A stretch of DNA of 64,000 nucleotides, taken from assembly GCA_005787585.1 (NCBI GenBank), contig SYAL01000002.1, positions 1-64,000 on the forward strand, given 5' to 3'. Under the pieces are notes generated by a model. That model was not told where the DNA came from. It saw only the letters and a list, made by a program, of their open reading frames with translations, and did no database searches. Source of the DNA: Bacteroidota bacterium (GTDB lineage: Bacteria > Bacteroidota > Bacteroidia > B-17B0 > Aurantibacillaceae). Positions 10,993 to 28,583 of this stretch are shown piece after piece. Position numbers and translations under genes: made by a program. The stretch's first letter is position 1, and every line of letters starts with the position of its first letter.

Positions 10993-11061
10993 CTAGATAT
11001 ATATTAAATAAAGATTTTTAATATGTCTATTTTTACTAATATAATCTAAAATTTTATTAAT

Positions 11062-11095
11062 AAAAAAACCCTTCATGAAAAATCAAGAAGGGTTT
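11062..11095 (-). terminator. Terminator of the ribosomal superoperon
   Basis: On the minus strand a 9-bp stem (AAACCCTTC 11066-11074 with GAAGGGTTT 11087-11095) with a 12-nt loop is followed by a run of seven T residues (A-run 11062-11068). It lies 20 nt after the rplQ stop. Confidence 0.92.
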
Positions 11096-11115
11096 AGATA
11101 AATTATTTAAAACAA

Positions 11116-11598
11116 TTATTCTGTTTCTTTAGCTTCTTCAATAGAAGAATTATCTATTTTTGTTGATTTAGAACCTCTGCTTCTACGAGTTGTTTTCTTA
11201 GTTGTTTTATCATTAGATTTTTTATTGTTACTATAAATCTCGTTAAAGTCAACTAATTCAATCATAGCCATTTCTGCTGCATCACCTTGTCGATTTCCAG
11301 TTTTAATTATTCGGGTGTATCCACCATTACGTTCTGCAACTTTTACTGCAACATCTTTAAATAATGTACTCACAACATCTTTGTTTTTTAAATAACTAAA
11401 TGCAGTTCTGCGGCTATGAGTTGTATCATCTTTACTTTTGGTAATAATTGGTTCAACATAAACGCGTAGGGCTTTTGCTTTAGCAAGAGTAGTAAAAATT
11501 CGTTTATTTTCAATTAAGGCACAAGCTAAGTTCATTAACAAAGCATGACGATGTGCGGTTTTTCTACCTAAATTATTTATTTTATCTCCGTGTCTCAT
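11116..11598 (-). CDS. rplQ: 50S ribosomal protein L17
   Basis: Binds 23S rRNA near the peptide exit side of the large subunit. 160 residues against 127 in E. coli. The core (about 1-118, beginning [20 protein letters not shown]) is canonical. The extra ~40 residues form a Lys/Ser/Thr tail that ends acidic ([10 protein letters not shown]), a pattern common in Bacteroidota L17. It is the last gene of the superoperon, 76 nt after rpoA, and is followed by a strong terminator. Confidence 0.97.
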
Positions 11599-11674
11599 TT
11601 TTTTTTGATTTAAGTTTCAATGTTCAATAAAATAAGATAAGACCTTAAATATTGTCTGAAAAAACTTATATTTA

Positions 11675-12667
11675 TTAATCTTTATCTAATTTATATTTTG
11701 CCACGTTCATTCCAAATTGTAAAGTTTTGGCTTGAACTAAATCTTCTAATTCGGTTAATGATTTTTTACCAAAATTTCTAAATTTCAACAAATCATTTTT
11801 ATTAAACGACACTAATTCTCCAAGGGTTTCAACGTCAGCAGCTTTCAGGCAATTTAAAGCACGAACAGATAAGTCCATGTCTACTAACTTGGTTTTTAAT
11901 AATTGACGCATGTGAAGGCTTGATTCATCAAATTCTTCATCATTACGTTTTTCTTCAGTATCTAAAGTGATTTTTTCATCAGAAAATAACATAAAATGAT
12001 AGATAAGAATCTTGGCAGCTTCTTTTAATGCATCTTTGGGATGAATTGATCCATCGGTAATGATATCAAAAATTAAACGTTCGTAGTCGGTTTTTTGCTC
12101 AACACGATAGTTTTCGATATTATATTTTACATTTTTGATAGGCGTATAAATAGAATCGATAAAAATAGTTCCAATTGGTGCGCTATTAGTTTTATTTTCT
12201 TCTGCAGGAACGTAACCACGTCCACGTTCTACGGTTAATTCCATTTTTAAACGAACAGAAGAATCACAATTAAAAATAACTAAATCAGGATTTAAAATTT
12301 GAAAACCATTCACGTATTTCGCAATATCGCCAGCAGTAAATTTATCTGCACCTGAAAAGTGGACCGTAATTTTTTCGCTATCGTGATTATCTAATTGTTT
12401 TTTAAAACGAACTTGTTTTAAATTTAAAACTATTTCAGTAACATCTTCAACAACTCCTTTGATGGTAGAAAACTCATGATCAACACCTTCAATTCTTAAA
12501 CTGGTAATTGCATAACCTTCGAGAGATGATAGCAGAATACGACGGAGGGAGTTTCCAATAGTGATACCAAATCCTGGTTCGAGGGGTCTAAACTCAAACT
12601 GTCCAGTAGTTTCATTTGAGTTAATCATGATAACCTTATCAGGTTTTACGAAATTTAAAATTGCCAT
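11675..12667 (-). CDS. rpoA: DNA-directed RNA polymerase alpha subunit
   Basis: 330 residues, matching E. coli (329). The N-terminal dimerisation domain covers about 1-230 ([20 protein letters not shown] and [16 protein letters not shown] near 20-52). A charged flexible linker ([12 protein letters not shown]) follows, then a C-terminal domain (about 255-320) with its helix-hairpin-helix ([17 protein letters not shown]) for contacts with DNA and activators. It lies in the alpha operon between rpsD and rplQ. Confidence 0.98.
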
Positions 12668-12697
12668 ATTTTTTTTCTTATAAAAATTTTTAATTAA

Positions 12698-13303
12698 TTA
12701 TTTAGAGTACAATTCAACTATTAATTGTTCTTTTATGTTTTCTGGTATCTGAGAACGCTCGGGGCGAGAAAGAAATTTACCGCTTAAGGATGATTTATCA
12801 AAATCTAACCAAGCATGTTTATTTACCGCTCCTGAAACTGCGTTTGAAACAATTTCTAACGATTTAGATTTTTCACGCACAGCAATAACATCTCCTGGTT
12901 TTAGTGTAAAAGATGCAATATTTACAACCAAACCGTTAACTGTAATGTGTGCATGAGATACTAATTGACGAGCGCCTCTTCGAGAAGGAGCGATTCCAAG
13001 ACGATATACAACATTATCTAAACGGCTTTCGATTAATTGCAATAACACTTCGCCTGTTATACCATGAGAGCGAGCTGCTTTATCAAAAGTTTTTGCAAAC
13101 TGTTTTTCTAAAATACCATAGGTATATTTAGCTTTTTGTTTTTCCATTAACTGAATAGCGTATTCAGATTGTTTTGCACGTTTTTTTGTGTTTCCGTGTT
13201 GCCCAGGAGGATAGTTCTTTTTTTCTAACGCTTTATCAGGACCAAATATTGGTTCTCTGAATTTACGAGCGATTTTTGATTTTGGACCTGTGTACCTTGC
13301 CAT
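12698..13303 (-). CDS. rpsD: 30S ribosomal protein S4
   Basis: 16S rRNA primary binder and assembly initiator. 201 residues. The S4-type RNA-binding domain covers about 90-155 ([20 protein letters not shown]). The N-terminal domain contains no cysteines, so this is the zinc-free form. In E. coli S4 represses the alpha operon. Here the 96-nt gap in front of rpsD holds two hairpins (13336-13382), a candidate place for such control. Confidence 0.97.
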
Positions 13304-13335
13304 TTTAAATAATCATTTTTTTTAGTTATTATTTA

Positions 13336-13382
13336 AGTTGAAAACCCTATAGATGATCAACTCCAAATCTCGATATCCGAGA
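13336..13382 (-). promoter_or_regulatory. Two-hairpin leader between rpsK and rpsD
   Basis: In the rpsK-rpsD gap the minus-strand RNA can form a 5-bp hairpin (13368-13372 with 13378-13382, loop 5) and then a 6-bp hairpin (13336-13341 with 13357-13362, loop 15). The first carries several G-C pairs, unusual in such AT-rich spacers. There is no T-run, so this is not a terminator. A role in S4 feedback is inference from E. coli and B. subtilis, where S4 binds its own operon mRNA. Confidence 0.4.
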
Positions 13383-13399
13383 CCGGCTTTTTTTATTTA

Positions 13400-13810
13400 T
13401 TATACTCTACGACGTTTAGGTGGACGACAACCATTATGTGGCATTGGCGTAATATCCATAATTTCAGAAACTTCAATTCCAGAAGTTGCGATTGTTCTGA
13501 TTGCACTTTCTCTTCCGCCACCTGGACCTTTAACGTAAACTTTAACTTTTCGTAAACCAGCATCAAAAGCAACCTTACTGCAATCTGCAGCAGCCATTTG
13601 AGCGGCATAAGGAGTGTTTTTTTTAGAACCTCTAAATCCCATTTTACCTGCACTACTCCAAGAAATTACTTGTCCGGAAATATTAGTTAATGAAATTATG
13701 ATATTGTTAAAAGTAGCATTAATGTGGGCTTCGCCATTTGCTTCTACCTTTACTGTGCGTTTGCGCTGAGTTATTTTAGCGTTGTTTGCAGCTGTGGGTT
13801 GTTTTGCCAT
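13400..13810 (-). CDS. rpsK: 30S ribosomal protein S11
   Basis: Part of the small-subunit platform, contacting the mRNA exit site. 136 residues. Conserved core [21 protein letters not shown] (near 30-50) and the invariant C-terminus [13 protein letters not shown]. It sits 26 nt downstream of rpsM, with a wider gap before rpsD. Confidence 0.98.
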
Positions 13811-13836
13811 TTGTATTGTAACTTAATTTTTAATTA

Positions 13837-14214
13837 TTATTTAGCAGCCATTTTTTTATTGGCAATTGTTTTACGTTTACCCTTACGAGTACGAGCATTA
13901 GTTTTAGAACGTTGACCACGAACAGGTAAACTGTTTCTGTGGCGAATTCCTCTATAACTATTAATATCGGTTAAACGTTTAATGTTTAATTGAACTTCAG
14001 ATCGGAGCGCACCTTCAATTTTAAAACTATTGTTAATCAAATTACGAATTGCATTTTGCTCATCATCTGACCACTCGTTTACTTTTTTGTCATGGTGAAT
14101 TCCAGCTTCACTCAAAATTTTAGCAGCTCTACTGCTTCCAATTCCGTAAATATAGGTTAAACCTACTACGCCTCTTTTGTTTTTGGGTAAATCTATACCA
14201 GCTATACGTGCCAT
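13837..14214 (-). CDS. rpsM: 30S ribosomal protein S13
   Basis: Head protein of the small subunit, contacting P-site tRNA and forming the B1 bridges. 125 residues. Helix-two-turn-helix region with [14 protein letters not shown] (22-35) and the basic tail [20 protein letters not shown]. It follows the short rpmJ gene after a 44-nt gap. Confidence 0.98.
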
Positions 14215-14258
14215 TTTTTATTAAATAAAATTTTTAAAAATATTTTCAAAGATGAATT

Positions 14259-14375
14259 TTATTTCTGTCTTTGTTTAAACTTTGGGTTTTTTTTATTGAT
14301 TACGTACAATTTTCCTTTGCGTCGCACAATTTTGCAATCGACACTTCTTTTTTTAATGGATGCTCTAACTTTCAT
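14259..14375 (-). CDS. rpmJ: 50S ribosomal protein L36, zinc-free form
   Basis: A 38-residue gene between infA and rpsM. It starts [20 protein letters not shown] and ends NPKFKQRQK, the unmistakable L36 pattern. Of the four zinc ligands of classical L36 (Cys11, Cys14, Cys27, His33), only Cys14 remains; the others are Ser11, Asn27 and Phe33. It therefore cannot hold zinc in the usual way and belongs to the C-minus class. It lies 11 nt after infA. Confidence 0.95.
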
Positions 14376-14386
14376 TTTTGTAATTT

Positions 14387-14605
14387 TTATTTGTATCTAA
14401 AAGTAATCCTAGCCTTTGATAAATCGTATGGACTCATTTCTAATTTCACTTTATCTCCTGGTAAAATTTTGATGTAGTGCATTCGCATTTTACCAGAAAT
14501 ATGCGCGGTAACAATATGTCCATTTTCTAACTCTGCTCTGAACATTGCGTTACTTAATGCTTCAATAATTGTTCCATCTATTTCAATATTTGATTGTTTG
14601 GCCAT
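14387..14605 (-). CDS. infA: Translation initiation factor IF-1
   Basis: Binds the ribosomal A site during initiation with IF-2 and IF-3. 72 residues, the standard length, a single OB fold with [20 protein letters not shown] and [19 protein letters not shown]. It follows secY by 7 nt, the conserved gene order of this operon in Bacteroidota. Confidence 0.98.
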
Positions 14606-14612
14606 TTTAAAA

Positions 14613-15944
14613 TTAACCCTGTTGAACCATCATTGAATTAGCACCCCTACCCTTTATTCTTCCTGTTTTCATTAAACCATCATAGTGTCTATTTAATAAA
14701 TATGTTTCAACTTGTTGTAATGTATCAAGAACAACACCAACTAAAATCAATAAAGACGTTCCCCCATAAAAATCAGCAAAAGCACTATTTATTCCCAGTT
14801 TTTGTGCAAAAGCGGGCATAATGGCAACACCAGCTAAAAATATAGAACCAGGTAAAGTAATTCTACTCATCACTTGATCTATAAATTCAGCAGTTTTTTT
14901 ACCGGGCTTTATACCAGGGATAAAACCACCATTCCTTTTCATATCATCGGCTAATTGATTGGGATTAACCATGATTGCTGTATAAAAATAAGTAAATAAA
15001 ATAATCATAATCGCAAAAATTAAATTATACCAAAAGCCATATCTTTCAGAAAAAACACCACCCGAATTACCTGAAAAACCTGATATTGCAGAAGGAATAA
15101 ACATAATTGCTTGAGCGAAAATGATTGGCATAACACCAGCAGCATTTACTTTTAAAGGGATATATTGACGAACTCCACCATATTGTTTGTTGCCAACTAT
15201 TTTTTTAGCAAATTGTACCGGTATTCTTCGAGTACCCTGAACCAATAAAATAGAAAAAACAATAACTAATAATAGAATAACAATTTCTATTAAAAAAATA
15301 ATCAAGCCACCATTACCAGCGGTTCTGGACTTTATTTCGGATAAAAAAGCAAAAGGTAAACGAGAAATAATACCAATCATAATAATTAGTGAAATGCCAT
15401 TACCTAAACCTTTATCAGTAATACGTTCGCCTAGCCACATTACAAACATGGTACCAGTTATTAATATAAAAATAGATTGAACCCACCAAAATGAACTTAA
15501 ATCTGTAAATGCCTGAGGAGCAGATGATTTAATTGAAGCTATATAACCTGGTGCTTGAACTGCAGTTACAGCAATTGTTAAAAAACGAGTATATTGATTT
15601 ATTTTTTTCCGACCACTTTCTCCTTCTCTTTGCATTTTTTGAAAATAAGGTACAGCCATACCAAGTAATTGAATAATAATAGATGCTGTAATGTATGGCA
15701 TTATGCCTAAACCGAAGATAGAAGCTCGTAAAAAAGCTCCACCAGCAAACATATTTATTAATCCTACAATACCACCGCTGTCGTTAGAATTGTTAGCAGA
15801 ATTTAAAGCATCAATATTAACACCCGGAAGAACCACATATGACCCTAAGCGATAAATCAAAACTAAGCCTAGAGTGACTATGATTCTTTGTCTTAGTTCC
15901 TCAATGGTCCAAATATTTCGAAGTGTGTCAATAAAACGCTTCAT
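14613..15944 (-). CDS. secY: Preprotein translocase subunit SecY
   Basis: Channel-forming subunit of the Sec translocon in the inner membrane. 443 residues with ten hydrophobic helices. Recognisable are the plug/TM2 region ([20 protein letters not shown] near 66-85) and the cytoplasmic loops that bind SecA and the ribosome ([20 protein letters not shown]). It lies between rplO (3-nt gap) and infA, the usual position. Confidence 0.98.
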
Positions 15945-15947
15945 ATA

Positions 15948-16397
15948 TTAGTTTATCTTAGTTATTGTTCCACCTTTTTCTTCAACAGCTTTTTTAGCTG
16001 AAGCTGTAAAGGCGTGTATTTTAATATCTACTTTTGATTTTAATTCGCCACGACCCATAATTTTTACTAAATCGTCTTTGTGAGCTAAACCATTTTCGAT
16101 TAAAACATCAAAATTAATTTCGGTTATTTTAGTAGAATCTAATAATTGCTGAATGCTATCTAAATTAATACCATGATGATTAACTCTATTAATATTTTTA
16201 AAGCCAAATTTAGGAACACGACGTTGCAGGGGCATTTGACCACCTTCAAAACCTACTTTTTTAGAGTGACCAGAACGCGATTGAGCTCCTTTATGACCTC
16301 GAGTAGCAGTACCACCGCCACCAGAACCTTGTCCACGACCACGTCGATAATTTGTTTTTACAGATCCTTTTTTAGGTTTTAATTCACTTAAATTCAT
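15948..16397 (-). CDS. rplO: 50S ribosomal protein L15
   Basis: Late-assembly protein of the large subunit. 149 residues. The Gly/Arg-rich N-terminal extension (RRGRGQGSGGGGTATRGHKG, 19-38) threads into 23S rRNA, and a globular domain follows. The only 3-nt gap to secY suggests tight translational linkage. Confidence 0.98.
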   Translation of the reverse strand: MNLSELKPKKGSVKTNYRRGRGQGSGGGGTATRGHKGAQSRSGHSKKVGFEGGQMPLQRRVPKFGFKNINRVNHHGINLDSIQQLLDSTKITEINFDVLIENGLAHKDDLVKIMGRGELKSKVDIKIHAFTASAKKAVEEKGGTITKIN

Positions 16398-16408
16398 TTT
16401 GTGTTCTA

Positions 16409-16588
16409 TTAAATATTTTCAACTTTTAAAACATGTTTTACCCTGTTAATCATACCCTCTATTGCTGGATTAACCTCTTTTTGCACCGCACTATGAGTTT
16501 TTCCCAAACCTAAAGCAATTAAAGTTGCTTTTTGAGATGGACTGCGTTTGGCGGTACTTTTAATTAATGTTAATTTTACTTTTCCCAT
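16409..16588 (-). CDS. rpmD: 50S ribosomal protein L30
   Basis: 59 residues from the ATG at 16588 (MGKVKLTLIKSTAKRSPSQK), the usual L30 length. Ferredoxin-like fold with ALGLGKTHSAVQKE. A second in-frame ATG at 16606 would add six residues and overlap the rpsE stop by 8 nt (ATGGATAA), which would favour translational coupling. I prefer the shorter form by family length but cannot exclude the longer one. Confidence 0.92.
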   Translation of the reverse strand: MGKVKLTLIKSTAKRSPSQKATLIALGLGKTHSAVQKEVNPAIEGMINRVKHVLKVENI

Positions 16589-16598
16589 TGTTTCAATT

Positions 16599-17117
16599 TT
16601 ATCCATTAAACACTCTTGATAATTTAATTCCACGTTGTTGAGCAACAGTAATAGGATCACGCATCTTTATTAAGGCATCAAGAGTAGCTTTTACTAAATT
16701 ATGAGGATTACTGGAACCTTTTGATTTTGCTAATACATCAGTAATACCGACACTTTCTAAAACTGCACGCATAGCACCACCTGCAATAACACCTGTTCCA
16801 TGAGCAGCAGGCTTTAAAAAAACACGGGCTCCTCCAAATTTACCTTCTTGAGCATGAGGAACAGTTCCATTTAATACTGGCACTTTAACCAAACTCTTTT
16901 TAGCATCTTCGATACCTTTTGTAATGGCATCAGTTACCTCATTTGCTTTACCTAAGCCTTGACCAATAACACCTTTTTCGTTTCCAACCACAACAATAGC
17001 AGAAAAACTGAAATGGCGACCGCCCTTTGTTACTTTGGTTACACGTTGAATAGCAACTAATTTATCTTTTAACTCTATTTCGCTTGATTTAACGCGTTTT
17101 ACTACTTCTTTTGACAT
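16599..17117 (-). CDS. rpsE: 30S ribosomal protein S5
   Basis: Small-subunit protein at the mRNA entry, affecting decoding accuracy. 172 residues. Double-stranded-RNA-binding-like N-terminal domain ([20 protein letters not shown] near 25-44) and the C-terminal domain with [20 protein letters not shown]. It lies between rplR and rpmD. Confidence 0.98.
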
Positions 17118-17128
17118 CTATTAGTATT

Positions 17129-17485
17129 TTAGAATTTTAAACCCCCTTCGCGAGCACCTTCGGCTAACGATTTTACACGACCATGATATAAAAACCCATT
17201 ACGATCGAAAACCACTTTTGTGATTCCGTTTGCAACTGCTTTTTCGGCTAGTAATTTACCAACCAGTTTTGCTTTTTCGATTTTATTGACTTTACTCGAA
17301 AGGATAGACTTATCAGCAGAACAAACAGCTAATAAAGTTTTTCCACCTTTATCGTCTATTAATTGAGCATATATTTCAGCATTACTACGGTATACACTTA
17401 AGCGAGGTGATTGCGATGTTCCATTAATGGATTTACGCAATTTAAATTTAATTTTTGTTCTTCTATCTTGTTTACTTACTGCCAT
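17129..17485 (-). CDS. rplR: 50S ribosomal protein L18
   Basis: 5S rRNA-binding protein of the central protuberance, acting with L5. 118 residues. [20 protein letters not shown] (27-46) and the C-terminal [20 protein letters not shown] are family-typical. The N-terminus is short and basic. Confidence 0.98.
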
Positions 17486-17524
17486 CTTTTTAATTTTTTT
17501 AAAGATGATTAATACTTTATTGAA

Positions 17525-18079
17525 TTATTTTTTTGAGGCCGATTTACCAGCTTTTCTTCTTAGTTGTTCGCCAACAAACTTAATACCTTTACCTTTGTAT
17601 GGCTCTGGTTTACGAAGGCTTCTTATTTTAGCAGCAACCATACCAATCAGTTGCTTATCTGCACTTTCCATTACTATTTTAGGATTTTGTCCTTTTTCAG
17701 CAGTGGTAGATACTTTAATTTCTTTTGGCAATTCAAAAGAAATGTTGTGTGAATATCCTAAAGATAATTCTAACATTTGTCCTCTATTTGAAGCACGATA
17801 ACCAACACCAACTAATTCTTGCTCTATTTTAAAACCCTCGCTAACCCCTTTTATCATATTAGCAATTAATGAACGGTATAAACCATGAAGTGATCTATGA
17901 CGTTTTTGATCAGTTGGGCGAGTTAGTAATATTTGGTTTTCGTGAACAGAAACGTTAATATCTAAATCTACTTTTTGAGTTAATTCTCCTTTTGAACCTT
18001 TAACAGTTACTAAACCGTTATTAATCTTTACCTCAACTCCTTTTGGTAATGCTATGGGGGATTTTCCTATACGTGACAT
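17525..18079 (-). CDS. rplF: 50S ribosomal protein L6
   Basis: Large-subunit protein near the factor-binding site. 184 residues, two tandem L6 folds. MSRIGKSPIALPKGVEV opens the protein, and the rRNA-binding C-terminal signature is RKPEPYKGKGIKFVGE. A GGAGG-like sequence (AGGAGGAAA) ends just before the start, one of the few Shine-Dalgarno-like motifs in the operon. Confidence 0.98.
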   Translation of the reverse strand: MSRIGKSPIALPKGVEVKINNGLVTVKGSKGELTQKVDLDINVSVHENQILLTRPTDQKRHRSLHGLYRSLIANMIKGVSEGFKIEQELVGVGYRASNRGQMLELSLGYSHNISFELPKEIKVSTTAEKGQNPKIVMESADKQLIGMVAAKIRSLRKPEPYKGKGIKFVGEQLRRKAGKSASKK

Positions 18080-18100
18080 GCTAATTTTCCTCCTATTAAA

Positions 18101-18499
18101 TTATGAAATATAACATAAAACTTCGCCCCCAACATTTAATTTCTTAGCTTCTTTGTCAGTAATAACTCCTTTAGAAGTAGAAATAATTGCAATACCTAAG
18201 CCATTTAATACTCGAGGCATTTTAACTACCCCAGAATATTTACGTAAACCTGGACTAGAAATACGCTCTAATGAACGGATGGCAGGTATTTTTGTTAATG
18301 GATGATACTTTAAGGCTATCTTTATTGAACCTTGCTTATTTTCGGTTTCTTCAAACTTGTAGTTTAAAATATAACCTTTTTCGAAAAGAATCTTTGTAAT
18401 TTCTTTTTTTAGATTGGAAGCCGGAACTTCAACAACGCGATGGTTTGCTTTTATCGCGTTTCTTACACGGGTTAAGTAATCTGATACTGTATCTGTCAT
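18101..18499 (-). CDS. rpsH: 30S ribosomal protein S8
   Basis: Primary 16S rRNA binder of the platform and, in E. coli, repressor of the spc operon. 132 residues ending ISTSKGVITDKEAKKLNVGG and EVLCYIS. It is preceded by an unusually long 114-nt gap that contains a consensus promoter (18574-18603) and an AT-rich inverted repeat. S8 and the downstream genes may therefore be transcribed partly independently of the genes upstream. Confidence 0.98.
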   Translation of the reverse strand: MTDTVSDYLTRVRNAIKANHRVVEVPASNLKKEITKILFEKGYILNYKFEETENKQGSIKIALKYHPLTKIPAIRSLERISSPGLRKYSGVVKMPRVLNGLGIAIISTSKGVITDKEAKKLNVGGEVLCYIS

Positions 18500-18573
18500 T
18501 TTTTAAGTTTATATGTTATTCCGAATTAACAGAATAATTATATTAAACAATTATTTATTTATTTTTGAGGTCG

Positions 18574-18603
18574 CAAATATACAAATATTTGCAATACCTA
18601 CAA
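18574..18603 (-). promoter_or_regulatory. Internal promoter of the ribosomal operon, before rpsH
   Basis: On the minus strand TTG (18603-18601), a 19-nt spacer and TATATTTG (18581-18574) give an exact Bacteroidota promoter, identical in spacing to the rpsL promoter. The -7 box is inside a perfect inverted repeat, GCAAATAT-ACAA-ATATTTGC (18573-18592). Transcription would start near 18568, leaving a leader of about 70 nt. That leader contains a 7-bp AT hairpin (AATAATT with AATTATT). Confidence 0.7.
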
Positions 18604-18613
18604 CATTTATTTT

Positions 18614-18883
18614 CTACCAACTTGCTTTAGTTAAGCCAGGTATTAATCCAAAGAGAACCATTTCTCGGAATGTTACACGACTTACACCAAATGTACGCAT
18701 ATATCCGCGAGGACGACCCGTCAAATTACAACGATTACGAACGCGAATTTTTGATGAGTTACGCGGTAATTTTTGTAATCCTACTGAATCGTTCGCTTTT
18801 TTAAGCTCTTCTCGCTTAGCTGCATACTTTTCAACTAATCTTTTACGTTTGACCTCGCGGGCCTTCATTGATTCTTTTGCCAT
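18614..18883 (-). CDS. rpsN: 30S ribosomal protein S14, zinc-free form
   Basis: Head protein of the small subunit. 89 residues, the longer C-minus class without the CxxC pairs; a single Cys remains in [16 protein letters not shown] (about 49-64). It follows rplE by only 2 nt and is the last gene before the internal promoter gap. Confidence 0.97.
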
Positions 18884-18885
18884 TT

Positions 18886-19452
18886 TTATGATTGTTTCTT
18901 TTTGAACGGAATTCCAAATTCAGTTAATAATGCATGAGCTTCTTTATCTGTTGGAGCTGTTGTTACAAAAGTAATATCCATTCCAGCAATTTTACTCACT
19001 TTATCAATATCAATTTCAGGGAAAATAATTTGTTCTGTTACTCCTAAAGTATAGTTTCCTCTACCATCAAATCCTTTATCATTTACACCTTTAAAATCTC
19101 GAATACGTGGAAGTGCTGATGCAATTAAACGATCTAAAAACTCGTACATTTTATCACCACGAAGAGTAACTCGAGCACCAATTGCAACACCTTTTCGTAG
19201 TTTAAAATTAGAAATATCTTTTGTAGAATAAGTCGCCACAGCTTTTTGACCAGAAATTGTAGTCATTTCTTTTATTGCTGATTCTATTAATTTCTTATCA
19301 GAAACAGCATCTCCTATACCTTGGTTGATACAAATTTTTTGCAATTTTGGAACTTGCATTGATGAAGTGTATAAAAATTGTTTTTGTAAAGTCGAAACGA
19401 TTTCGTTAAGATATTTACCTTTTAAACGAGGTTGATAAGTTGTTTTTGCCAT
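18886..19452 (-). CDS. rplE: 50S ribosomal protein L5
   Basis: 5S rRNA-binding protein of the central protuberance. 188 residues with [16 protein letters not shown] (39-54), [16 protein letters not shown] and the end [12 protein letters not shown]. Its ATG shares one base with the rplX stop (19452), so translation is probably coupled. Confidence 0.98.
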
Positions 19453-19769
19453 TATTTAATTGATTCCTTGGTTTTTGAAGAGATGCGCTCAATTTTTTGA
19501 GTTGTCTCATTTAATTTACGACCTATGCGAACAGTTTTGCCACCTTCTAAAAACATTAAGTTTGAAATGTGGATTGAGCCTTCTTTTTTTACAATACCAC
19601 CATTGGTATTTTTGGCATTTGGTTTTTCACTTTTACTAACCATATTTACACCCTCAACAATAGCACGCAATTTTTTTGGATCTATTGTAACGATTTTACC
19701 TTGCTTACCTTTTGATTCGCCAGAAATTACTTTAACGGTGTCGCCTTTTTTTAATTTTATCTTAGACAT
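19452..19769 (-). CDS. rplX: 50S ribosomal protein L24
   Basis: Assembly initiator that binds the 5' domain of 23S rRNA. 105 residues. The KOW motif is at the N-terminus ([20 protein letters not shown], 7-26), with [20 protein letters not shown] following. It lies between rplN and rplE. Confidence 0.98.
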
Positions 19770-19788
19770 GTTTATTATCTTTTTGTAT

Positions 19789-20157
19789 TTAAAGCACTTC
19801 TGGTGCTAATGAAATTATTTTCATAAATTGTTTATCGCGTAATTCGCGAGCTACTGGTCCAAAAATACGAGTACCTCGAATTTCATCAGTTGTATTTAAT
19901 AAAACTACAGCGTTATCATCAAAACGAATGTAAGAACCATCTGGTCTGCTTATTTCTTTTCTTGTTCTTACAATTACAGCTTTACTTACTGTACCTTTTT
20001 TTGCATTACCACTTGGCATTGCATGCTTGATAGTAACTACTACTTTATCACCAATGGAGGCATAACGCTTTTTTGTTCCACCCAATACACGAATAACAAG
20101 TACTTCTTTAGCACCACTATTATCAGCTACGGTTAATCTGGATTCGTTTTGTATCAT
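19789..20157 (-). CDS. rplN: 50S ribosomal protein L14
   Basis: Large-subunit interface protein that also contacts silencing factor RsfS. 122 residues, the standard length. [20 protein letters not shown] and the C-terminal [19 protein letters not shown] are canonical. Confidence 0.98.
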
Positions 20158-20188
20158 TTTAAATTTTTATTATCGATTAACTCTCATT

Positions 20189-20449
20189 TTATTTAACTTT
20201 TTCAACAACTTCAACTAAACGCCAATTTTTTGTTTTACTTAAAGGGCGAGTTTCAGCAATTTTTACGGTATCTCCAATACTGCATTCGTTTTTCTCATCG
20301 TGAGCAACGAAGGTGCTTGTTTTTTTAAGAAATTTACCATATTTAGGGTGTTTTACTTTACGCATAACAGAAACAACAATGCTTTTATCCATCTTGTTAC
20401 TTTTAACAACACCAACTTTTTCTTTTCTTAAGTTTCTTTCAATTTCCAT
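20189..20449 (-). CDS. rpsQ: 30S ribosomal protein S17
   Basis: Primary 16S rRNA binder, OB fold. 86 residues with [20 protein letters not shown] (8-27) and [20 protein letters not shown]. It is 13 nt downstream of rpmC. Confidence 0.98.
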
Positions 20450-20462
20450 AAATTTCTATCAA

Positions 20463-20663
20463 TTATTTATTTGAAGTATTTTTACGTTTTGTAACCTCTG
20501 TTAACAAGCGTGCTATATTTCTGCGATTAAAGCGAATTTTAGAAGGATTTTCAACAGGAGAAATAGCATGGTTTAAAGTGATTTTATTTAAAGCAGCCTT
20601 TTCATCTTTTACCTTTTCAATAAGATCTTGATCGGGTAAATTTACTATATCTTTATTTTTCAT
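20463..20663 (-). CDS. rpmC: 50S ribosomal protein L29
   Basis: Protein at the peptide exit, part of the docking site for trigger factor and SRP. 66 residues, two helices. IRFNRRNIARLLTEVTKRKN near the C-terminus is characteristic. It is separated from rplP by an unusually wide 104-nt gap. Confidence 0.96.
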   Translation of the reverse strand: MKNKDIVNLPDQDLIEKVKDEKAALNKITLNHAISPVENPSKIRFNRRNIARLLTEVTKRKNTSNK

Positions 20664-20682
20664 TTTAAGTTTGTTTTAATTG

Positions 20683-20700
20683 TGTTCTTTTGTTAGAACA
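20683..20700 (-). promoter_or_regulatory. Hairpin in the 104-nt rplP-rpmC gap
   Basis: A 6-bp stem, TGTTCT (20683-20688) with AGAACA (20695-20700), and a 6-nt loop. It lies 19 nt before the rpmC ATG in one of the widest gaps of the S10 section. No T-run follows. No TAnnTTTG box with correct spacing is seen (the closest, TTACTTTG, lacks the TA). Function unknown; RNA processing or attenuation is possible. Confidence 0.35.
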
Positions 20701-20767
20701 TTTTTTATCAATATTTAATCAAAGTAACGGTTTAATTAAAATTAATAATATTTTTATTTTCAATTAG

Positions 20768-21199
20768 TTACTGAACGGTCGACTCAACATAATCTCTGCG
20801 AACTATGAATTTAGTAACAATTGGTAATTTTTGAGCTGCTAATCGAAGTGCCTCTCTAGCAACAGCTAATGGCACGCCTTCAGCTTCGAACAAAATACGA
20901 CCTCGTTTTACTGGAGCCATCCAATATTCAGGAGCGCCTTTTCCTTTACCCATACGAACCTCAGCAGGTTTTGAAGTTACAGGGCGATCCGGAAAAACAC
21001 GAATCCAAACCTGACCTTCTCGTTTCATAAAACGTGTAATAGCAATACGAGCAGCCTCAATTTGACGACCAGTCATTCTACACTCATCCATTGCTTTAAT
21101 TCCAAATGAACCAAATGCTAACTCATGGCCACGCTTCGCATCGCCTTTCATTTTCATTTTTTGTGATTTTCTATATTTTGATCTTTTTGGTTGTAACAT
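20768..21199 (-). CDS. rplP: 50S ribosomal protein L16
   Basis: Helps form the A-site tRNA pocket in the large subunit. 143 residues with [19 protein letters not shown] at the start and [20 protein letters not shown] (79-98). The region around Arg81 (GQVWIRVF) matches the loop hydroxylated by YcfD in E. coli; hydroxylation here is not shown. Confidence 0.98.
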
Positions 21200-21226
21200 G
21201 AATTAAATTTTTATCTGATACTAATT

Positions 21227-21976
21227 TTATTTATCTTCTCTTTTAAGTCTTTTTTTTCCACTAAACTTTGGACGATCATTGTCTCTTCTTTCGCCACCTG
21301 AACTGACACCTTTTTCTTTGGATAAGCCTGAGTTAGGGGATAAATCTCTCTTACCAAAAACTTCTCCGCGACAAATCCATACCTTAATTCCGATACGACC
21401 ATAAGACGTATGTGCTTCAGCTACAGCGTAATCAATATCTGCACGTAAAGTATGCAAGGGTGTTCTTCCTTCTTTATAGCCTTCAGAACGTGCCATTTCT
21501 GCACCCCCTAAACGACCCGATACTTTGATTTTAATTCCTTCAGCACCTAATCTCATAGTAGAAGCCATTGACATTTTTGCTGCGCGACGGAAAGAAATAC
21601 GTCCTTCAACTTGTCGTGCAATACTATCAGCAACTAAACGAGCATCTAATTCAGGTCTTTTAATTTCAAATATATTAATTTGAATCTCTTTTTTAGTTAG
21701 TTTTTTTAGTTCTTCTTTTAATTTATCTACTTCTTTACCACCTTTACCGATAATGATACCAGGACGGGCAGTATTAATAGTTACTGTAACTAATTTTAGC
21801 GTTCTTTCTATTACAATCTTTGAAATGCTCCCTTTAGGAAGACGAGCTTTAACATAATTTCTGATTGTATCATCTTCCATTAATTTGTCTCCGAAGTCTT
21901 TACCACCAAACCAGTTAGAATCCCATCCTTTAATGATTCCTAACCTAATACCAATTGGATTTACTTTTTGTCCCAT
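21227..21976 (-). CDS. rpsC: 30S ribosomal protein S3
   Basis: Lines the mRNA entry tunnel with S4 and S5. 249 residues. KH type II domain with GIIIGKGG at 73-80; the C-terminal domain includes RGRIS-type basic segments and [20 protein letters not shown]. The last ~35 residues are a charged tail ([20 protein letters not shown]), typical of Bacteroidota S3. Confidence 0.98.
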
Positions 21977-21982
21977 TTCTTA

Positions 21983-22378
21983 TTAAATATTTTTTGTGTC
22001 TAAAATTAAAGTTACATGATTTGTACGTTTTCTTATACGGTAGCCGCGACCTTGAGGGGCAGTTCGTAAGCGCTTAACCATCAGGGCACTATCAACCATC
22101 ACTTCTTTAACAAACAATGTACCTTCCTCGGCACGTTGTTGACTTTTTTGTTCGTAATTGGCGATAGCAGATTTTAATAATTTTTCTAACCTTCCAGATG
22201 CTTCTCTAGTGTTAAACTTTAACACATTTAAAGCAGTATATGCATCCATACCTCTAACTAAATCTGCAACTTGTCGCATTTTGCGAGGAGAGGTGGGGCA
22301 ATTATTTAATTTTGCAAAATAAGAACTTTTATTCTCTTCTTTACGTTTTTCGGCAACTAGTCTTTTTCTTTTTCCCAT
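21983..22378 (-). CDS. rplV: 50S ribosomal protein L22
   Basis: Its extended loop lines the peptide exit tunnel. 131 residues with [20 protein letters not shown] (26-45) and the loop [20 protein letters not shown] (about 99-118). The loop looks wild type, with no macrolide-resistance type deletion. It is 6 nt upstream of rpsC. Confidence 0.98.
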
Positions 22379-22387
22379 GGTTTCTAA

Positions 22388-22657
22388 TTATTTTTTATTA
22401 TGACCAGCGTGACCTTTAAATACTCGAGTTGGTGAAAACTCTCCTAGTTTGTGACCAACCATGTTCTCGGTTATATAAACCGGGATAAATTTGGCTCCAT
22501 TATGCACAGCAAATGTATGCCCTACAAATTCTGGTGGAATTGTTGAACGACGAGCCCAAGTCTTAATTACAGATTTTTTTCCGCTTTGATTCATCTTTTC
22601 AACCTTTCCTTCAAGGTTGAAATCGATAAAAGGCCCTTTTTTTAATGATCTTGACAT
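22388..22657 (-). CDS. rpsS: 30S ribosomal protein S19
   Basis: Head protein that binds 16S rRNA with S13. 89 residues: [20 protein letters not shown], then [20 protein letters not shown] and [19 protein letters not shown]. It is preceded by a 57-nt gap with a hairpin. Confidence 0.98.
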
Positions 22658-22670
22658 TTTTCTTTTTTTT

Positions 22671-22700
22671 TGGTTTTGAAATTTCGGTAAACCGAAACCA
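22671..22700 (-). promoter_or_regulatory. Hairpin between rplB and rpsS
   Basis: A 6-bp stem TTTCGG-TAAA-CCGAAA (22682-22697). Its flanks, TGGTTT (22671-22676) and AAACCA (22695-22700), can form an alternative 6-bp stem that excludes the first. No T-run follows on the minus strand, so it is not a simple terminator. The GC-bearing stem stands out in an AT-rich spacer. Confidence 0.4.
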
Positions 22701-22714
22701 TTAAACGTTATTTA

Positions 22715-23542
22715 TTATTTTTTTCTTCTTTCAATAATATGTTTATTTGATGCTTTTGCTTTGTAACGTGTTTTAAATCCTTTAGATGGTAAACCTTTAC
22801 GAGAGCGGGGTTGTCCACCTGATGCACGGCCTTCTCCACCACCCATAGGATGGTCAACAGGATTCATAGCAACTGGTCTAGTACGAGGTCGAACACCTAA
22901 CCAACGAGAGCGACCTGCTTTACCATAAACTTCTTGATTATGATCAGGATTTGATACCGCACCAATGGTAGCCTTACAAGTAATTAAAATCATACGAACT
23001 TCTCCAGATGGCATGCGTAAAATTGCATACTTTCCATCGCGAGCAGTTAATTGAGCGTATCCACCTGCACTTCGAGCTAAAACAGCACCTTGCCCAGGTC
23101 GTAATTCGATGTTATGAATAATAGTTCCTAGAGGGATTTCAGATAAAAATAATGTGTTTCCTATTTCTGGAGCAGCACCTTTACCTGACATGATTTTTTG
23201 ATCAACTTTAATTCCTTGAGGTGCAATAATATAACGTTTTTCTCCATCTTTGTAAAAAATTAAGGCAATACGAGCCGAACGATTTGGATCATATTCCACA
23301 GTTTTTACAGTTGCTTCAATTCCATCTTTATCGCGTTTAAAATCTATTGAACGAATAACTTTTTTATGACCGCCACCAATGTAACGCATTGTCATTTTAC
23401 CTGAATTATTTCGTCCGCCTGATGAGTAATTTGTTTTAACAATTAAACTTTTTTCTGGTTCAGAGGCAGTAATTTCGGCAAACTCAGAAGTTAAGGCGTA
23501 TCTTAAACTTGGAGTGAGTGGTCTATATTTTTTTAATCCCAT
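22715..23542 (-). CDS. rplB: 50S ribosomal protein L2
   Basis: Core 23S rRNA protein near the peptidyl-transferase centre. 275 residues with the conserved loop [18 protein letters not shown] (about 220-237), whose His is invariant, and the basic tail [20 protein letters not shown]. Confidence 0.98.
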
Positions 23543-23563
23543 TTTAAATTCGTTTTACAAAAA

Positions 23564-23854
23564 TTATATACTAGCATAAAAATCAATTACTTCGCCTGTT
23601 TTGAGGGTTACAATTGCTTTTTTGTTTCGATTTACTCTGCCAACAGCAACACCACGAGTCGTGTTTCTTGTTTTTACTTTTCCAACATATTGTTGAGTAT
23701 TAACCGAATCTACTTTAACTCCATACATAGCTTCTATGGCTCCTTTTATTTCTAATTTATTGGCTCTCTTATCTACTACAAAACCATAACAATTAAGCTT
23801 TTCGGCTTGAGATGTCATTTTTTCTGTAATGATTGGCTTTATTAAAATATCCAT
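23564..23854 (-). CDS. rplW: 50S ribosomal protein L23
   Basis: Exit-tunnel protein, docking site for trigger factor. 96 residues beginning MDILIKPIITEKMTSQAEK; the middle ANKLEIKGAIEAMYGVKVDS is family-typical. Its ATG lies 1 nt after the rplD stop. Confidence 0.98.
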   Translation of the reverse strand: MDILIKPIITEKMTSQAEKLNCYGFVVDKRANKLEIKGAIEAMYGVKVDSVNTQQYVGKVKTRNTTRGVAVGRVNRNKKAIVTLKTGEVIDFYASI

Positions 23855-23855
23855 T

Positions 23856-24485
23856 TTACTTATTTAAGATTGTTTCAAGAACTTTTACTGAACTTTCTGC
23901 TAAAATTAAAGTCTCTGCATTTAAAATATCATAAGTATTTAAATCAGATGCCTTTACAACTTTAACACCCTGAATATTTCGGGAAGACAAATATACATTC
24001 TTATTTGAATCACCTAATACTAGAAGAGTTTTTTTATCACTAAGATTTAAATTTTTCATTAAATCAATGTAATTTTTAGTTTTTGGAGCTTCAAAATTGA
24101 AGTCCTCTAAAACTGTGATTGCATTATCTTTTGCTTTATAAGTTAAAGCTGAAATACGAGCCAAAGCCTTTACTTTTTTATTCAATTTAAAAGAATAATC
24201 GCGAGGTCGGGGACCAAAAGCACGACCTCCACCGATAAATAATGGAGATTTCATTGAACCAGCACGAGCTCCACCGGTTCCTTTTTGTTTTTTTAATTTT
24301 TTTGTGGTTCTCGAAATTTCTGCACGTTCTTTTGATTTATGTGTTCCTTGACGTTGATTAGCTAAAAATTGCTTTATATCAAGATAAATACAATGATCAT
24401 TTGGCTCTACTGAAAAAATCGAATCTAATAAATCCGCTTTTTTAGTTGTTTTTTTTCCACTTATATTTAATATCTCTAATTGCAT
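23856..24485 (-). CDS. rplD: 50S ribosomal protein L4
   Basis: Exit-tunnel protein; in E. coli it is also the repressor of the S10 operon. 209 residues. The extended loop [20 protein letters not shown] (59-78) and [20 protein letters not shown] are canonical. Only 2 nt separate it from rplC. Confidence 0.98.
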
Positions 24486-24487
24486 AA

Positions 24488-25111
24488 TTACTTTTCTATT
24501 AAGACGTAAGACCCTTTTGCACCTGGCACTGAACCTTTTATAAGGATCAGATTTTTTTCAGGCATAATTTTAACTATAACTAAGTTTTGAACTTTCTTTC
24601 GATCACCACCCATTCTACCACCCATTCGATGCCCTGGCATAACTCGAGAAGGATCTGAAGATGCGCCTAATGAACCAGGTGCTCTTTCGCGATCATGTTG
24701 ACCATGAGATTTGTTGGCATGCCCTACTCCACTGAATCCGTATCGTTTAACAACTCCTTGAAAGCCCTTACCTTTACTCGTTCCAATAATATCTACAAAT
24801 TCTCCTTCTGCAAATAAATCTACAGTGAGGACTTCACCCAAGTTTTTACTTTCCTCAAAATTACGGAATTCAACAATTTTGCGTTTTGGTGTTGTTTTAG
24901 CAATTGCAAAATGACCTTTCATTGCCCCAGTTGTATTTTTTTCCTTTTTTTCATCATAGGACAATTGAATAGATGTGTAACCGTCTTTTTCATTGGTTTT
25001 TACTTGCGTCACTACGCAAGGACCTGCTTCTATAATTGTGCATGGTAAATATTTACCATTGGCATCGAAGAAACTCGTCATTCCTACTTTTTTACCAATT
25101 AAACCTGACAT
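24488..25111 (-). CDS. rplC: 50S ribosomal protein L3
   Basis: Initiates 50S assembly and reaches the peptidyl-transferase centre. 207 residues: [20 protein letters not shown], then [20 protein letters not shown] and the loop [20 protein letters not shown]. Confidence 0.98.
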
Positions 25112-25171
25112 TTTAATTTTATTTTAATTATTACTCTTTATATTTAATTTTAATCTAATTATTACTGAAAG

Positions 25172-25477
25172 CTATACTTTAATTTCAACTTCAACACCGC
25201 TTGGTAATTCTAACTTCATTAAGGCATCAACTGTTTTAGAGGATGAGCTATAAATATCTAACAAACGCTTATAGGCACACAATTGAAACTGATCACGTGC
25301 TTTTTTATTAACGTGCGGAGATTTTAATACTGTAAAAATTCTTTTATTGGTGGGTAAAGGAATAGGTCCATTTACAACTGCACCTGAAGCTTTTACAGTT
25401 TTAACAATTTTTTCAGCTGACTTGTCAACTAAATTAAAATCGTATGATTTTAATTTTATTCTAATTCTTTGGCTCAT
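25172..25477 (-). CDS. rpsJ: 30S ribosomal protein S10 (NusE)
   Basis: 30S head protein and transcription antitermination partner of NusB and NusG. 101 residues. [20 protein letters not shown] (4-23) and [20 protein letters not shown] (38-57) are canonical. It follows fusA by 31 nt without an obvious promoter, so the str and S10 sections appear to form one transcription unit. Confidence 0.98.
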
Positions 25478-25508
25478 ATTAAAAGAACGTATTTATTTGG
25501 TTTATTTT

Positions 25509-27623
25509 TTAAACTTTTTCTGTTTTTCCTTTTGCTTTTGAAATTACGTCGGCAGCAATATTGAGTGGTGCTTCGTTATAATGACTAAATTCCATAGTTG
25601 AAGTGGCGCGACCTGAAGTTAAAGTTCGTAACTGAGTTACATAACCAAACATTTCAGATAGAGGAACTTTTGCTTTAATAACTTGAGCATTTCCCTTAGA
25701 ATCCATTCCTTCAATTTGGCCACGGCGACGGTTTAAATCGCCTACAACATCCCCCATATTTTGTTCAGGCGTTAAAACCTCAACTTTCATGATAGGCTCT
25801 AATAAAACAGGTTTACATTTGGGTAATGCTTCGCGGTATGCACTACGAGCACAAATCTCAAAAGATAAAGCATCTGAGTCGACAGCGTGATAAGAACCAT
25901 CAGTAAGTATAACTTTTAATCCTACAAGAGGATATCCGGCTAATACACCATTTGATAATGAGTTTTTGAATCCTTTTTCAACTGCAGGAATAAATTCACG
26001 TGGAATATTACCACCAGTAATTTCGTTAACAAATTGTAATCCTCCGGTTTTTGATGTATCAAAATCTGCATCAACTGGACCCAAAATAATTTTCATATCG
26101 GCAAATTTTCCACGACCACCTGATTGTTTTTTGTATACTTCACGATGGTTAATGGTACCTGAAATAGCTTCTTTGTAAGCAACTTGAGGGGCGCCTTGGT
26201 TTACCTCTACTTTAAATTCTCTTTTTAAACGATCTACAATAATTTCTAAGTGAAGTTCGCCCATTCCAGAAATAATTGTTTGCCCCGAATCTTCGTCTGT
26301 TTTTACACGAAAGGTTGGATCTTCTTCAGCTAATTTATTTAAGCCTACTCCCAGTCGATCTAAATCTCCTTGTGTTTTAGGCTCAATAGCTATTGCAATT
26401 ACGGGCTCTGGAAAATTCATTGCTTCTAATACAATTGGATTTTTTTCATCACATAGAGTGTCTCCGGTGCGAATATCTTTAAATCCTACAACTGCACCAA
26501 TATCTCCGGCCTCAAGAAACTCAACTGGATTTTGTTTGTTGGCATGCATTTGAAAAATACGAGAAATACGTTCTTTATTACCAGAACGGGTATTAAACAC
26601 ATAAGAACCTGCATCTAAACGACCAGAATAAGCGCGAATAAAACACAAACGACCTACAAAAGGATCGGTTGCTATTTTAAAAGCCAAAGCTGTAAAAGGT
26701 TCGGTAACATCAGGCTTACGAGTAACTTCTTTTTCTGTATCAGGATTAACTCCTGTAATATGATTTTTGTCTAAAGGAGATGGCATAAGCTCCATCACTA
26801 AATCTAACATTGTTTGAACACCTTTATTTTTAAAAGCGCTTCCACAAACCATCGGAACTATTTTATTTGCAACACAGGCTTTACGCAATGCGTCAAGCAC
26901 TTCTCTTTCAGTAATTGTATCGGGCGCATCAAAAAACTTTTGCATGATGTTATCATCAAAATCTGATACTGCCTCTAACATTTTTTCTCTCCACACCGCT
27001 GCCTCCTCTATCATATCAGCTGGAATTGGAACTTCTTTGAAAGTCATTCCTTTATCATCATCATTCCAAACGATACCACGGAAATTTATTAAATCTACAA
27101 CTCCAATAAAATTTTCTTCTGAACCAATTGGTAACTGGAGAGGGACTGCATTACCGCCTAAAATATCGCGAGTTTGCTTAACCACTTTAAGAAAATCAGC
27201 CCCCTGACGGTCCATTTTATTCACGAAACCGATACGAGTAACATTATAATTATCAGCTAAACGCCAATTTGTTTCAGATTGAGGTTCAACACCATCAACA
27301 GCAGAAAATAAGAATACTAAACCATCTAATACACGTAATGAACGATTAACTTCAACAGTAAAATCAACGTGACCAGGGGTATCAATAATATTTATTTTAT
27401 AGTTATTATTACGATATTTCCAAAAACAAGTAGTTGCTGCTGAGGTTATGGTGATACCACGTTCTTGTTCTTGTGCCATCCAATCCATAGTAGCCGCACC
27501 ATCGTGTACCTCTCCAATTTTATGGTTAACACCAGTATAATATAAAATTCTTTCAGTACAAGTAGTTTTACCTGCATCAATGTGGGCAGCAATTCCAATA
27601 TTTCTTGTGTAACGTAAGTCCAT
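25509..27623 (-). CDS. fusA: Elongation factor G
   Basis: GTPase that drives translocation. 704 residues. P-loop AHIDAGKTT at 13-21, switch [10 protein letters not shown] and NKMDRQGA are intact, followed by domains II-V. It belongs to the canonical EF-G length class and no tuf gene follows, as is usual in this operon in Bacteroidota. Confidence 0.98.
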
Positions 27624-27631
27624 TTGGTTAG

Positions 27632-28099
27632 TTAAAATCTAAAATGTGAAAATGCTTTATTGGCTTCTGCCATTTTGTGAATGTCTTCTTTCTTTTTAAA
27701 AGAAGCGCCTTCTTCTTTGGAAGCCGCAACAATTTCTCCAGCTAATTTTTGAGCCATTGATTTTTCGTTACGTTTTCGAGAATAAGAAATTAACCATTTC
27801 ATTGCCATAGAAATCTTACGATCGGGGCGAATTTCAGATGGAATTTGAAATGTTGAACCACCAACACGACGAGAACGAACCTCTACTTGAGGTGTTACAT
27901 TAGTTAAAGCTTTTTTCCATACTTCTAAACCATCTTCGTTTGTACGTTTCGCAACGATGGCAATGGCATCATGAAAAATAGATGATGCAGTATTTTTTTT
28001 ACCATCGTACATCAAATTATTTAAAAAACGTGTTACCATGGTATCGTTATAAATCGGATCAGGTAACAACACTCTTTTTTTTGCTCTTGCTTTTCTCAT
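27632..28099 (-). CDS. rpsG: 30S ribosomal protein S7
   Basis: Head assembly initiator contacting E-site tRNA and mRNA. 155 residues. [20 protein letters not shown] at the start; [20 protein letters not shown] (72-91) and the C-terminal [11 protein letters not shown] match. In E. coli S7 represses the str operon. Confidence 0.98.
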
Positions 28100-28119
28100 T
28101 TTATAAAATCTTAATAGAA

Positions 28120-28521
28120 TTATTTTTTCTTAGCTGGAGCTGCAGCTCCTGATTTAGGACGTTTAGTGCCATACTTAGATCGTTGTTGTTTTCGCCCTTC
28201 AACGCCACCTGTATCAAGGCTTCCACGAACGATATGATACCGCACGCCAGGTAGATCTTTAACACGACCTCCACGAACCAAAACAATTGAATGTTCTTGA
28301 AGATTGTGTCCTTCACCAGGAATATAGGCGATGATTTCCTGCTTGTTTGTTAAACGAACCTTAGCAACTTTGCGCATAGCAGAGTTAGGTTTTTTTGGTG
28401 TAGTTGTGTAAACTTTTGTACACACACCGCGGCGCTGAGGACAAGAGTCTAGAGCGGCTGACTTACTTTTATTGGTCGGTTTAGTTCGACCTTTTCTCAC
28501 TAACTGCTGTATTGTGGGCAT
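28120..28521 (-). CDS. rpsL: 30S ribosomal protein S12
   Basis: Decoding-centre protein. 133 residues. The loops [13 protein letters not shown] (40-52) and [14 protein letters not shown] (83-96) carry Lys43 and Lys88, the residues most often changed in streptomycin-resistant mutants; both are wild type here. A short Ala/Pro/Lys tail extends the C-terminus. It is the first gene of the superoperon, with a consensus promoter about 63 nt upstream. Confidence 0.98.
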
Positions 28522-28583
28522 TTAATATCCTTTGTTTTACTTGATGTTATTGGTTTTCAGCTTATTTCCTTTTTAAAGGATGG

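Follow-up and report, generated by a model that had tools for sequence, protein, structure and literature searches.

A conserved promoter and a conserved structured RNA leader precede rpsH in a group of uncultured Bacteroidota, forming a candidate control region for ribosomal protein S8

Does a gap between two genes of a long ribosomal protein cluster carry control signals of its own? In Escherichia coli, S8 is the repressor of the spc operon, and a 2024 review, in its accessible part, describes the regulation of this operon outside E. coli-like bacteria as unknown and states that phylogenetic studies have not advanced (PMC10931766). The question is raised here by the gap between rpsN and rpsH in a Bacteroidota genome (G000; 1.76 Mb, 73% complete), of which we analyzed a stretch of 64,000 nucleotides, hereafter the window.

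The window carries a large ribosomal protein cluster on its minus strand, in which NCBIfam models confirmed rpsL, rpsG, rplP, rplE, rpsN, rpsH, rplF, secY, and rpoA (nine of ten tested proteins; the remaining one, S1, lies outside). The genes that we take, from the usual gene order, to be rplR, rpsE, rpmD, rplO, infA, rpmJ, rpsM, rpsK, rpsD, and rplQ complete the part considered here. Read on the minus strand, the rpsN-rpsH gap (18500-18613, 114 nt) consists of a TTG, 19 nt, TATATTTG, CGACCTC, an A/T-rich stretch, and a hairpin, after which rpsH starts at 18499 (Table 1). The probable regulated gene is rpsH, the product of which contains an ISTSKG stretch including the S-T-S named in the accessible text of PMC4176348.

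Table 1. Positions of the features of the rpsN-rpsH gap and its surroundings (window coordinates, except in the last row)
Feature	Position	Strand	Basis or remark
rpsN (ribosomal protein S14), gene upstream of gap	18614-18883	-	NCBIfam NF006477
-33 element TTG	18601-18603	-	TTG 18-21 nt 5′ of box in 29/34 genus genomes
Palindrome GCAAATAT-N4-ATATTTGC overlapping -7 box	18573-18592	.	Degenerate dyad in relatives
-7 box TATATTTG (TAnnTTTG, Bacteroidota primary sigma factor)	18574-18581	-	Box in 34/34 genus genomes
Conserved structured RNA leader of rpsH	18507-18548	-	Covariance model R1 match 18503-18548, 65 bits
Outer helix, 5′ arm GUUU-A-AUAU	18540-18548	-	Fold and alignment
Internal loop AA	18538-18539	-	Opposite 18515; invariant, 71/71 distinct sequences
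Inner stem, 5′ arm	18530-18537	-	Fold and alignment
Apical loop	18524-18529	-	Length and sequence variable
Inner stem, 3′ arm	18516-18523	-	Fold and alignment
Outer helix, 3′ arm AUAUAAAC	18507-18514	-	Fold and alignment
rpsH (ribosomal protein S8)	18101-18499	-	NCBIfam NF001109
Downstream genes that the promoter could serve	11116-18079	-	rplF, secY, rpoA by NCBIfam; remainder from ORF order
Chitinophagaceae-type hairpin	L066:2946-2983, L074:2925-2964, L081:2932-2969, L084:2941-2978, L101:3066-3103, L217		

A structured RNA leader in front of rpsH

The original prediction had noted an AT hairpin just before rpsH and had connected it with S8. The hairpin is real, longer and more structured than first described, and ends 7 nt 5′ of the rpsH start codon; the S8 hint was thus correct as to the region of interest, where the hairpin proved to be a conserved RNA element tied to rpsH. 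Its inner stem and outer helix are separated by an internal loop in which the nucleotide opposite the AA is C in the window and C, A, or G in relatives, and its apical loop ranges in length from a few nucleotides to over 20. All 71 distinct sequences share UAUAAUU in the left strand and UAA-N-AUAU in the right strand, N being C in 56, A in 9, and G in 6. A 64-nt piece of the window folds with a minimum free energy of -8.8 kcal/mol (z -3.1); single-sequence z scores elsewhere were -3.5 for locus L027, and -1.61 and -0.59 for L052 and L046, the last two being unexceptional.

Covariation strongly supports this structure as a conserved RNA fold. When 42 leaders were scored against ((((.((((..((((((((.......)))))))).)))))))), 94.8% of the cells were paired and 8 of the 16 pairs showed double changes; the covariation score was 0.279, compared with 0.147±0.010 in shuffles (none of 500 as high) and at most 0.112 with one strand slid. 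Alignment A1 was chosen by a text pattern in which the flanks are partly fixed, so that the invariance of its flank columns is in part due to selection; long-loop sequences, mostly absent from it, were placed in A2. The 71 distinct sequences of A2, obtained by model search and fitted to the model structure, were 94.4% paired, with 81 double-change cells versus 20.8±9.9 in shuffles. The family set (A4), obtained and fitted in the same way and with a few of its 27 rows repeating contigs already in the model, gave 16 double-change cells in 25 distinct sequences versus 5.5±1.6; the four distal outer pairs are mostly missing from it. Exchanges extend to the outer helix, which diverged family members preserve with different pairs: it is changed to GUAU/AUAC in genus g26 (L243, L246, and L248) and to GCAU/AUGC in L232, a locus missed by the model that has further exchanges in the inner stem. 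Among 1133 cells, 986 are Watson-Crick pairs, 83 are G-T (G-U in RNA), and only 2 are A-C. The wobble pair is therefore tolerated on the rpsH strand and its mirror image is not, which shows that it is the RNA transcribed in the rpsH direction that forms the functional structure, rather than a DNA palindrome.

The leader is lineage-restricted and fixed to rpsH. Model R1 gave a single match in each of 49 among 395 class genomes (good genomes: 42 of 338), distributed over 13 of 196 genera and 9 families (f1, f4, f6, f7, f19, f21, f28, f38, and f44). Every one of these 49 matches (E up to 0.01; all loci inspected) lies directly before rpsH on the same strand. In a phylum-wide draw of genomes other than those of the class draw, R1 matched 1 of 395, the window genome itself, which marks the restriction to a lineage. 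Within the genus, the leader is present in 34 of 37 genomes, and the 3 without it are the 3 without a detectable rpsH; these figures come from a search that covered 60 relatives in addition to the window genome and that also returned three further matches with E of 0.05-0.99 away from rpsH. Among family members outside the genus, 29 of the 32 genomes with rpsH have the leader. The exceptions are L232, L234, and L239, and a diverged version is retained at L232.

A related-looking hairpin, UCC-AAU-stem-UA-GGAGG, precedes rpsH in Chitinophagaceae-type genomes, including Flavisolibacter, Parafilimonas, Segetibacter, Flaviaesturariibacter, and others, for which cultured strains exist; it pairs part of an AGGAGG Shine-Dalgarno-like sequence. 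The corresponding model R2, built from five sequences, matched 2 of 395 class-sample genomes, at L217 before rpsH and at L218, where no S8 gene was found in the stretch inspected. Five Chitinophaga-type genomes (L058, L069, L072, L079, and L086) share GAUUGGAUAUCGCAUUGU before rpsH, and when the rpsN-rpsH gaps of Chitinophaga and further Chitinophagaceae were folded, no shared structure emerged that was convincing.

The candidate ligand and known S8 sites

S8 is the probable ligand of the leader, a proposal made from position, because rpsH is the first gene behind the leader and S8 is the known repressor of the E. coli cluster. In this respect the leader is S8-like, and in its core sequence the likeness is only suggestive. 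The S8 site of the genus 16S rRNA, helix 21 (h21), reads UAUAAGUCAGUGG ... CCAUUGAUACUG (numbering and key residues as in the accessible text of PMC4176348). By eye, UAUAAU-stem-A-N-A-U of the leader has the base order of h21: equivalents of A595, A596, U598, A640, N641, A642, and U644 follow each other in order (UAUAAU / A-N-A-U versus UAUAAGU / AUACU), with the G597-C643 pair absent, and covariation favors another register. That register pairs U9 with A62, the A642 equivalent, which would bury this base.

A covariance model of h21 (R3) did not include the leader among its 7 matches (E up to 10) in window positions 11000-29000, nor an h21-like site at rplE, and returned 0 matches in 28 genus loci; being built from three similar genus 16S genes, R3 is a weak probe. 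An E. coli-like S8 site elsewhere in the cluster was sought with this same three-sequence probe and was not found. According to the accessible text of PMC4176348, S8 can bind an RNA that does not have the h21 consensus once the RNA has altered its pairing, and a missing h21 match is thus compatible with S8. The RNA described there is artificial, a SELEX aptamer against Bacillus S8, which binds without the consensus once the pairing has shifted.

The main competing explanation accepts the leader as a true cis-acting RNA and assigns it another ligand, namely a different ribosomal protein encoded downstream, or none, in which case the hairpin would tune translation, act in attenuation, or be processed by RNase. 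That R3 did not match the leader, that S8 was assigned from position only, and that the hairpin persists across the family despite variation in both promoter and distal helix are all in its favor. We nevertheless consider it somewhat unlikely, given that each of the R1 matches at E up to 0.01 precedes rpsH, that the gap sequence contains no U-run terminator after the leader, and that the internal loop is the same in all 71 sequences whereas the apical loop and the stem sequence vary, a pattern that points to specific recognition and not to mere structure.

Like the E. coli S8 operator, located at the start of rplE, the leader would place this gene cluster under autogenous control, here probably with S8 as repressor; each is a hairpin in RNA whose asymmetric internal loop lies close to a start codon. 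It is not, as tested, a member of that operator type: it stands before rpsH and not at the start of rplE, lacks G597-C643, and is not matched by the h21 model made from three similar sequences. Also comparable are the ribosomal leaders (r-leaders) for S4, L13, S15, and S16 described in Bacteroidia and Flavobacteria (Eckert and Weinberg 2020, PMC7247131). In the accessible text, these too are hairpins that precede ribosomal protein genes and are confined to particular lineages, and some lie within the large ribosomal protein cluster, such as the S4 leader before rpsD-rpoA-rplQ. Table 1 of the same study names no S8 leader and no leader located before rpsH. Rfam models gave no window match at the gathering score and, below it, only six matches with E of 2.5 or worse, and among the papers listed in a search of open-access literature (subscription papers and supplements being outside its scope) there was none on a leader before rpsH. 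With its covariation-supported conserved structure and its consistent place upstream of a ribosomal protein gene (49/49), the two r-leader properties that can be computed, the element is probably a new ribosomal leader.

A second gap in the same cluster, between rpsK and rpsD (13304-13399, minus strand, 96 nt), contains an inverted repeat GTTGA...TCAAC, and Rfam models gave no match there; in Bacteroidia, a published S4 leader precedes rpsD.

Promoter and dyad

The proposed TTG-N19-TATATTTG promoter was found in the gap at 18574-18603 of the minus strand, as was its resemblance to the rpsL promoter (28584-28613, minus strand), which has identical N19 spacing. The box, the -33 element, and the spacing fit the primary sigma promoters of Bacteroidota as given in the accessible texts of PMC7366714 and PMC9723704 (TTTG/TTG near -33, TAnnTTTG at -7). 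In the window alone, this pattern is at chance level, TTG-N19-TAnnTTTG occurring 3 times versus 2.61 expected by motif count. Given this chance frequency, and the ease with which shuffling produces palindromes (see below), a single sequence proves little and the argument rests on conservation.

In all 34 genus genomes with a detected rpsH, as in the window, the gap contains TAnnTTTG followed by C, and in 29 of them a TTG lies 18-21 nt upstream (N19 in the window); the exceptions are L007, L008, L011, L017, and L022. These counts derive from 37 genus genomes (G000-G036), of which G010, G012, and G032 were left out as being without an S8 match; loci L032, L034, L035, L038, and L039, with gap sequences identical to those of G-handle loci, are omitted, and L001 and L139 were dropped as duplicates of the window. 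A further genus member outside the 34 counted, G420 (L219), also has the promoter and the leader. The stretch 3′ of the box is GC-rich in the genus, mostly GCCCCCTC. In 400 kb of the relative G001, TTG-N18-21-TAnnTTTG occurs 12 times in the 39.95 kb upstream of ORFs (0.30/kb); the rate is 0.15/kb when this upstream DNA is read on its other strand and 0.04/kb in coding DNA. The alignment of the gap across relatives, named in the original prediction as a check, thus found the promoter kept throughout the genus, and a predicted internal promoter from which rpsH-rplQ could be transcribed separately, as had been suggested, is well supported by this conservation. With the box at -12 to -5, as in flavobacteria (accessible text of PMC9723704), the predicted transcription start lies near 18569 and the predicted leader transcript is ~70 nt long.

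Outside the genus, most inspected genomes have the leader without the promoter. Of 31 gaps from the rest of the family, 5 contain a TAnnTTTG box (L224, L235, L236, L237, and L241), whereas the leader is present in 29 of 32 genomes, making the leader the more widespread element; in the genus it lies downstream of the conserved promoter and elsewhere inside a predicted polycistronic mRNA. The box of L237 sits within an inverted repeat and may itself be due to chance. Many family loci outside the genus that are without the promoter, for example L225, L233, and L251, have a conserved GAGUAUUAAUG 5′ of the leader hairpin.

Two further observations concern the genus loci. An extra stretch of ~27-77 nt separates the rpsN stop from the -33 element in 16 of the 34 genomes (e.g., L006, L008, L011, L018, and L030) and is absent from the window; it folds at z ≤ -2 in 12 of the 16, with no U-run after it, and may mark the end of the upstream transcript. 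In L186 (G021:C1:9000-11200), the search found rpsH of G021 in two pieces, possibly owing to a sequencing or assembly error, with leader and promoter intact.

Compared with ordinary primary sigma promoters of Bacteroidota, the rpsH promoter differs in its location inside a ribosomal protein cluster, its GC-rich start region, and a conserved dyad, GGnAAAT-N8-ATTTGC. The rpsL promoter (TTG-N19-TATCTTTG) has no dyad, and its start region, CCATCC, is also C-rich. In the window, as had been noted, the -7 box is part of an exact palindrome, GCAAATAT-ACAA-ATATTTGC, a 20-mer that is unique in G000 and did not occur in 100 shuffles of the window. Shuffling the AT-rich gap, however, produced a perfect 8-bp inverted repeat with a spacer of up to 12 in 471 of 3000 trials; when only the 19-nt spacer was shuffled and the box kept constant, 464 of 20000 trials did so. 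As the main feature of the gap, the palindrome was set aside and retained as a weak alternative, perfect 8-bp inverted repeats being common in gap shuffles and the palindrome being reduced to a degenerate dyad in the genus, without a regulon.

A protein site in the dyad is perhaps indicated, on the strength of the sequence comparisons, and in its full form this would be an operator on which a dimeric DNA-binding protein, recognizing GGnAAAT-N8-ATTTGCC, represses or activates rpsH-rplQ transcription, an arrangement compatible with the leader. The dyad is conserved beyond what other promoters show: its mean match is 6.86 of 11 positions in 36 sequences versus 3.09 in 11 other promoters of G001, and AA at -9/-8 occurs in 34 and 33 of the 34 genus promoters versus 1 of the 11 others. 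Exchanging dyad halves between genomes lowers the match to 6.56±0.10, with 8 of 5000 permutations reaching 6.86, although the permutation ignores relatedness; and where the box has C before TTTG, two of three loci (L030 and L113) compensate with the matching left-half G. Against an operator, L114 does not compensate, the full 8+8 palindrome is almost restricted to the window species and G004, and neither the near-match search of G000 nor the pattern search of 38 genus genomes found a regulon. Up to 2 mismatches, G000 has 7 sites versus 3 for the reversed control, and GGNAAATN8ATTTGCC occurs in 18 of the 38 genomes, at the rpsH promoter in 15 of the 18 and exclusively there in 10. The palindrome as a repressor site, as originally suggested, thus gains weakly from the conservation of the dyad and loses by its degeneracy in most relatives and the missing regulon, and we regard an operator as unlikely.

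That the gap holds just an ordinary internal promoter, a chance palindrome, and a functionless AT-rich hairpin is highly improbable, since the frequencies of promoter pattern and inverted repeats that would allow it are outweighed by the conservation of the promoter in 34/34 genomes and, for the leader, contradicted by the RNA covariation and the linkage to rpsH.

A proposed two-part control region for rpsH

The explanation that we favor, with a probability of about 0.6, is a two-part control region, in which a promoter of the genus is combined with an r-leader through which S8 represses rpsH. It builds on the established RNA structure of the leader, its strand, its strict link to rpsH, and the conservation of the promoter, from which we infer S8 as ligand, translational repression, and the reach into the downstream genes. 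The first part, the primary sigma promoter with its GC-rich start region, would provide rpsH and the genes behind it with transcripts of their own. The second part, present in at least nine families, would be the r-leader hairpin immediately in front of the rpsH start codon, with an asymmetric internal loop (AUAAUU / AANAU) that does not vary; an internal loop that is invariant beside an apical loop of variable length suggests protein-type recognition. S8 in excess of free 16S rRNA would bind this loop and stabilize the hairpin, thereby keeping 30S subunits off the rpsH start codon and reducing S8 synthesis, and the genes behind rpsH might also be lowered, by coupling or mRNA decay.

A more elaborate version, which we offer tentatively and hold to be improbable as a whole, treats the S8-binding leader as a pairing switch and combines it with a dedicated promoter bearing an operator-like dyad, making rpsH-rplQ, with secY and rpoA, a separately controlled S8 unit. 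In the free RNA the A642 equivalent would be paired (U9-A62); S8 would shift the 3′ strand by two positions, creating an h21-like core minus one base pair and locking ribosome entry at rpsH. If true, this would put the spc cluster under S8 control in a phylum for which such control is not known, according to the accessible text of the review cited above (PMC10931766).

For the two-part control region itself, a leader that accompanies rpsH in nine or more families of Bacteroidota is a concrete, testable candidate for spc control. Its recognition loop is defined, and it offers a case in which to examine how S8 might recognize an RNA other than a simple copy of h21. The locus also shows how a long ribosomal protein cluster can be split into separately controlled parts.
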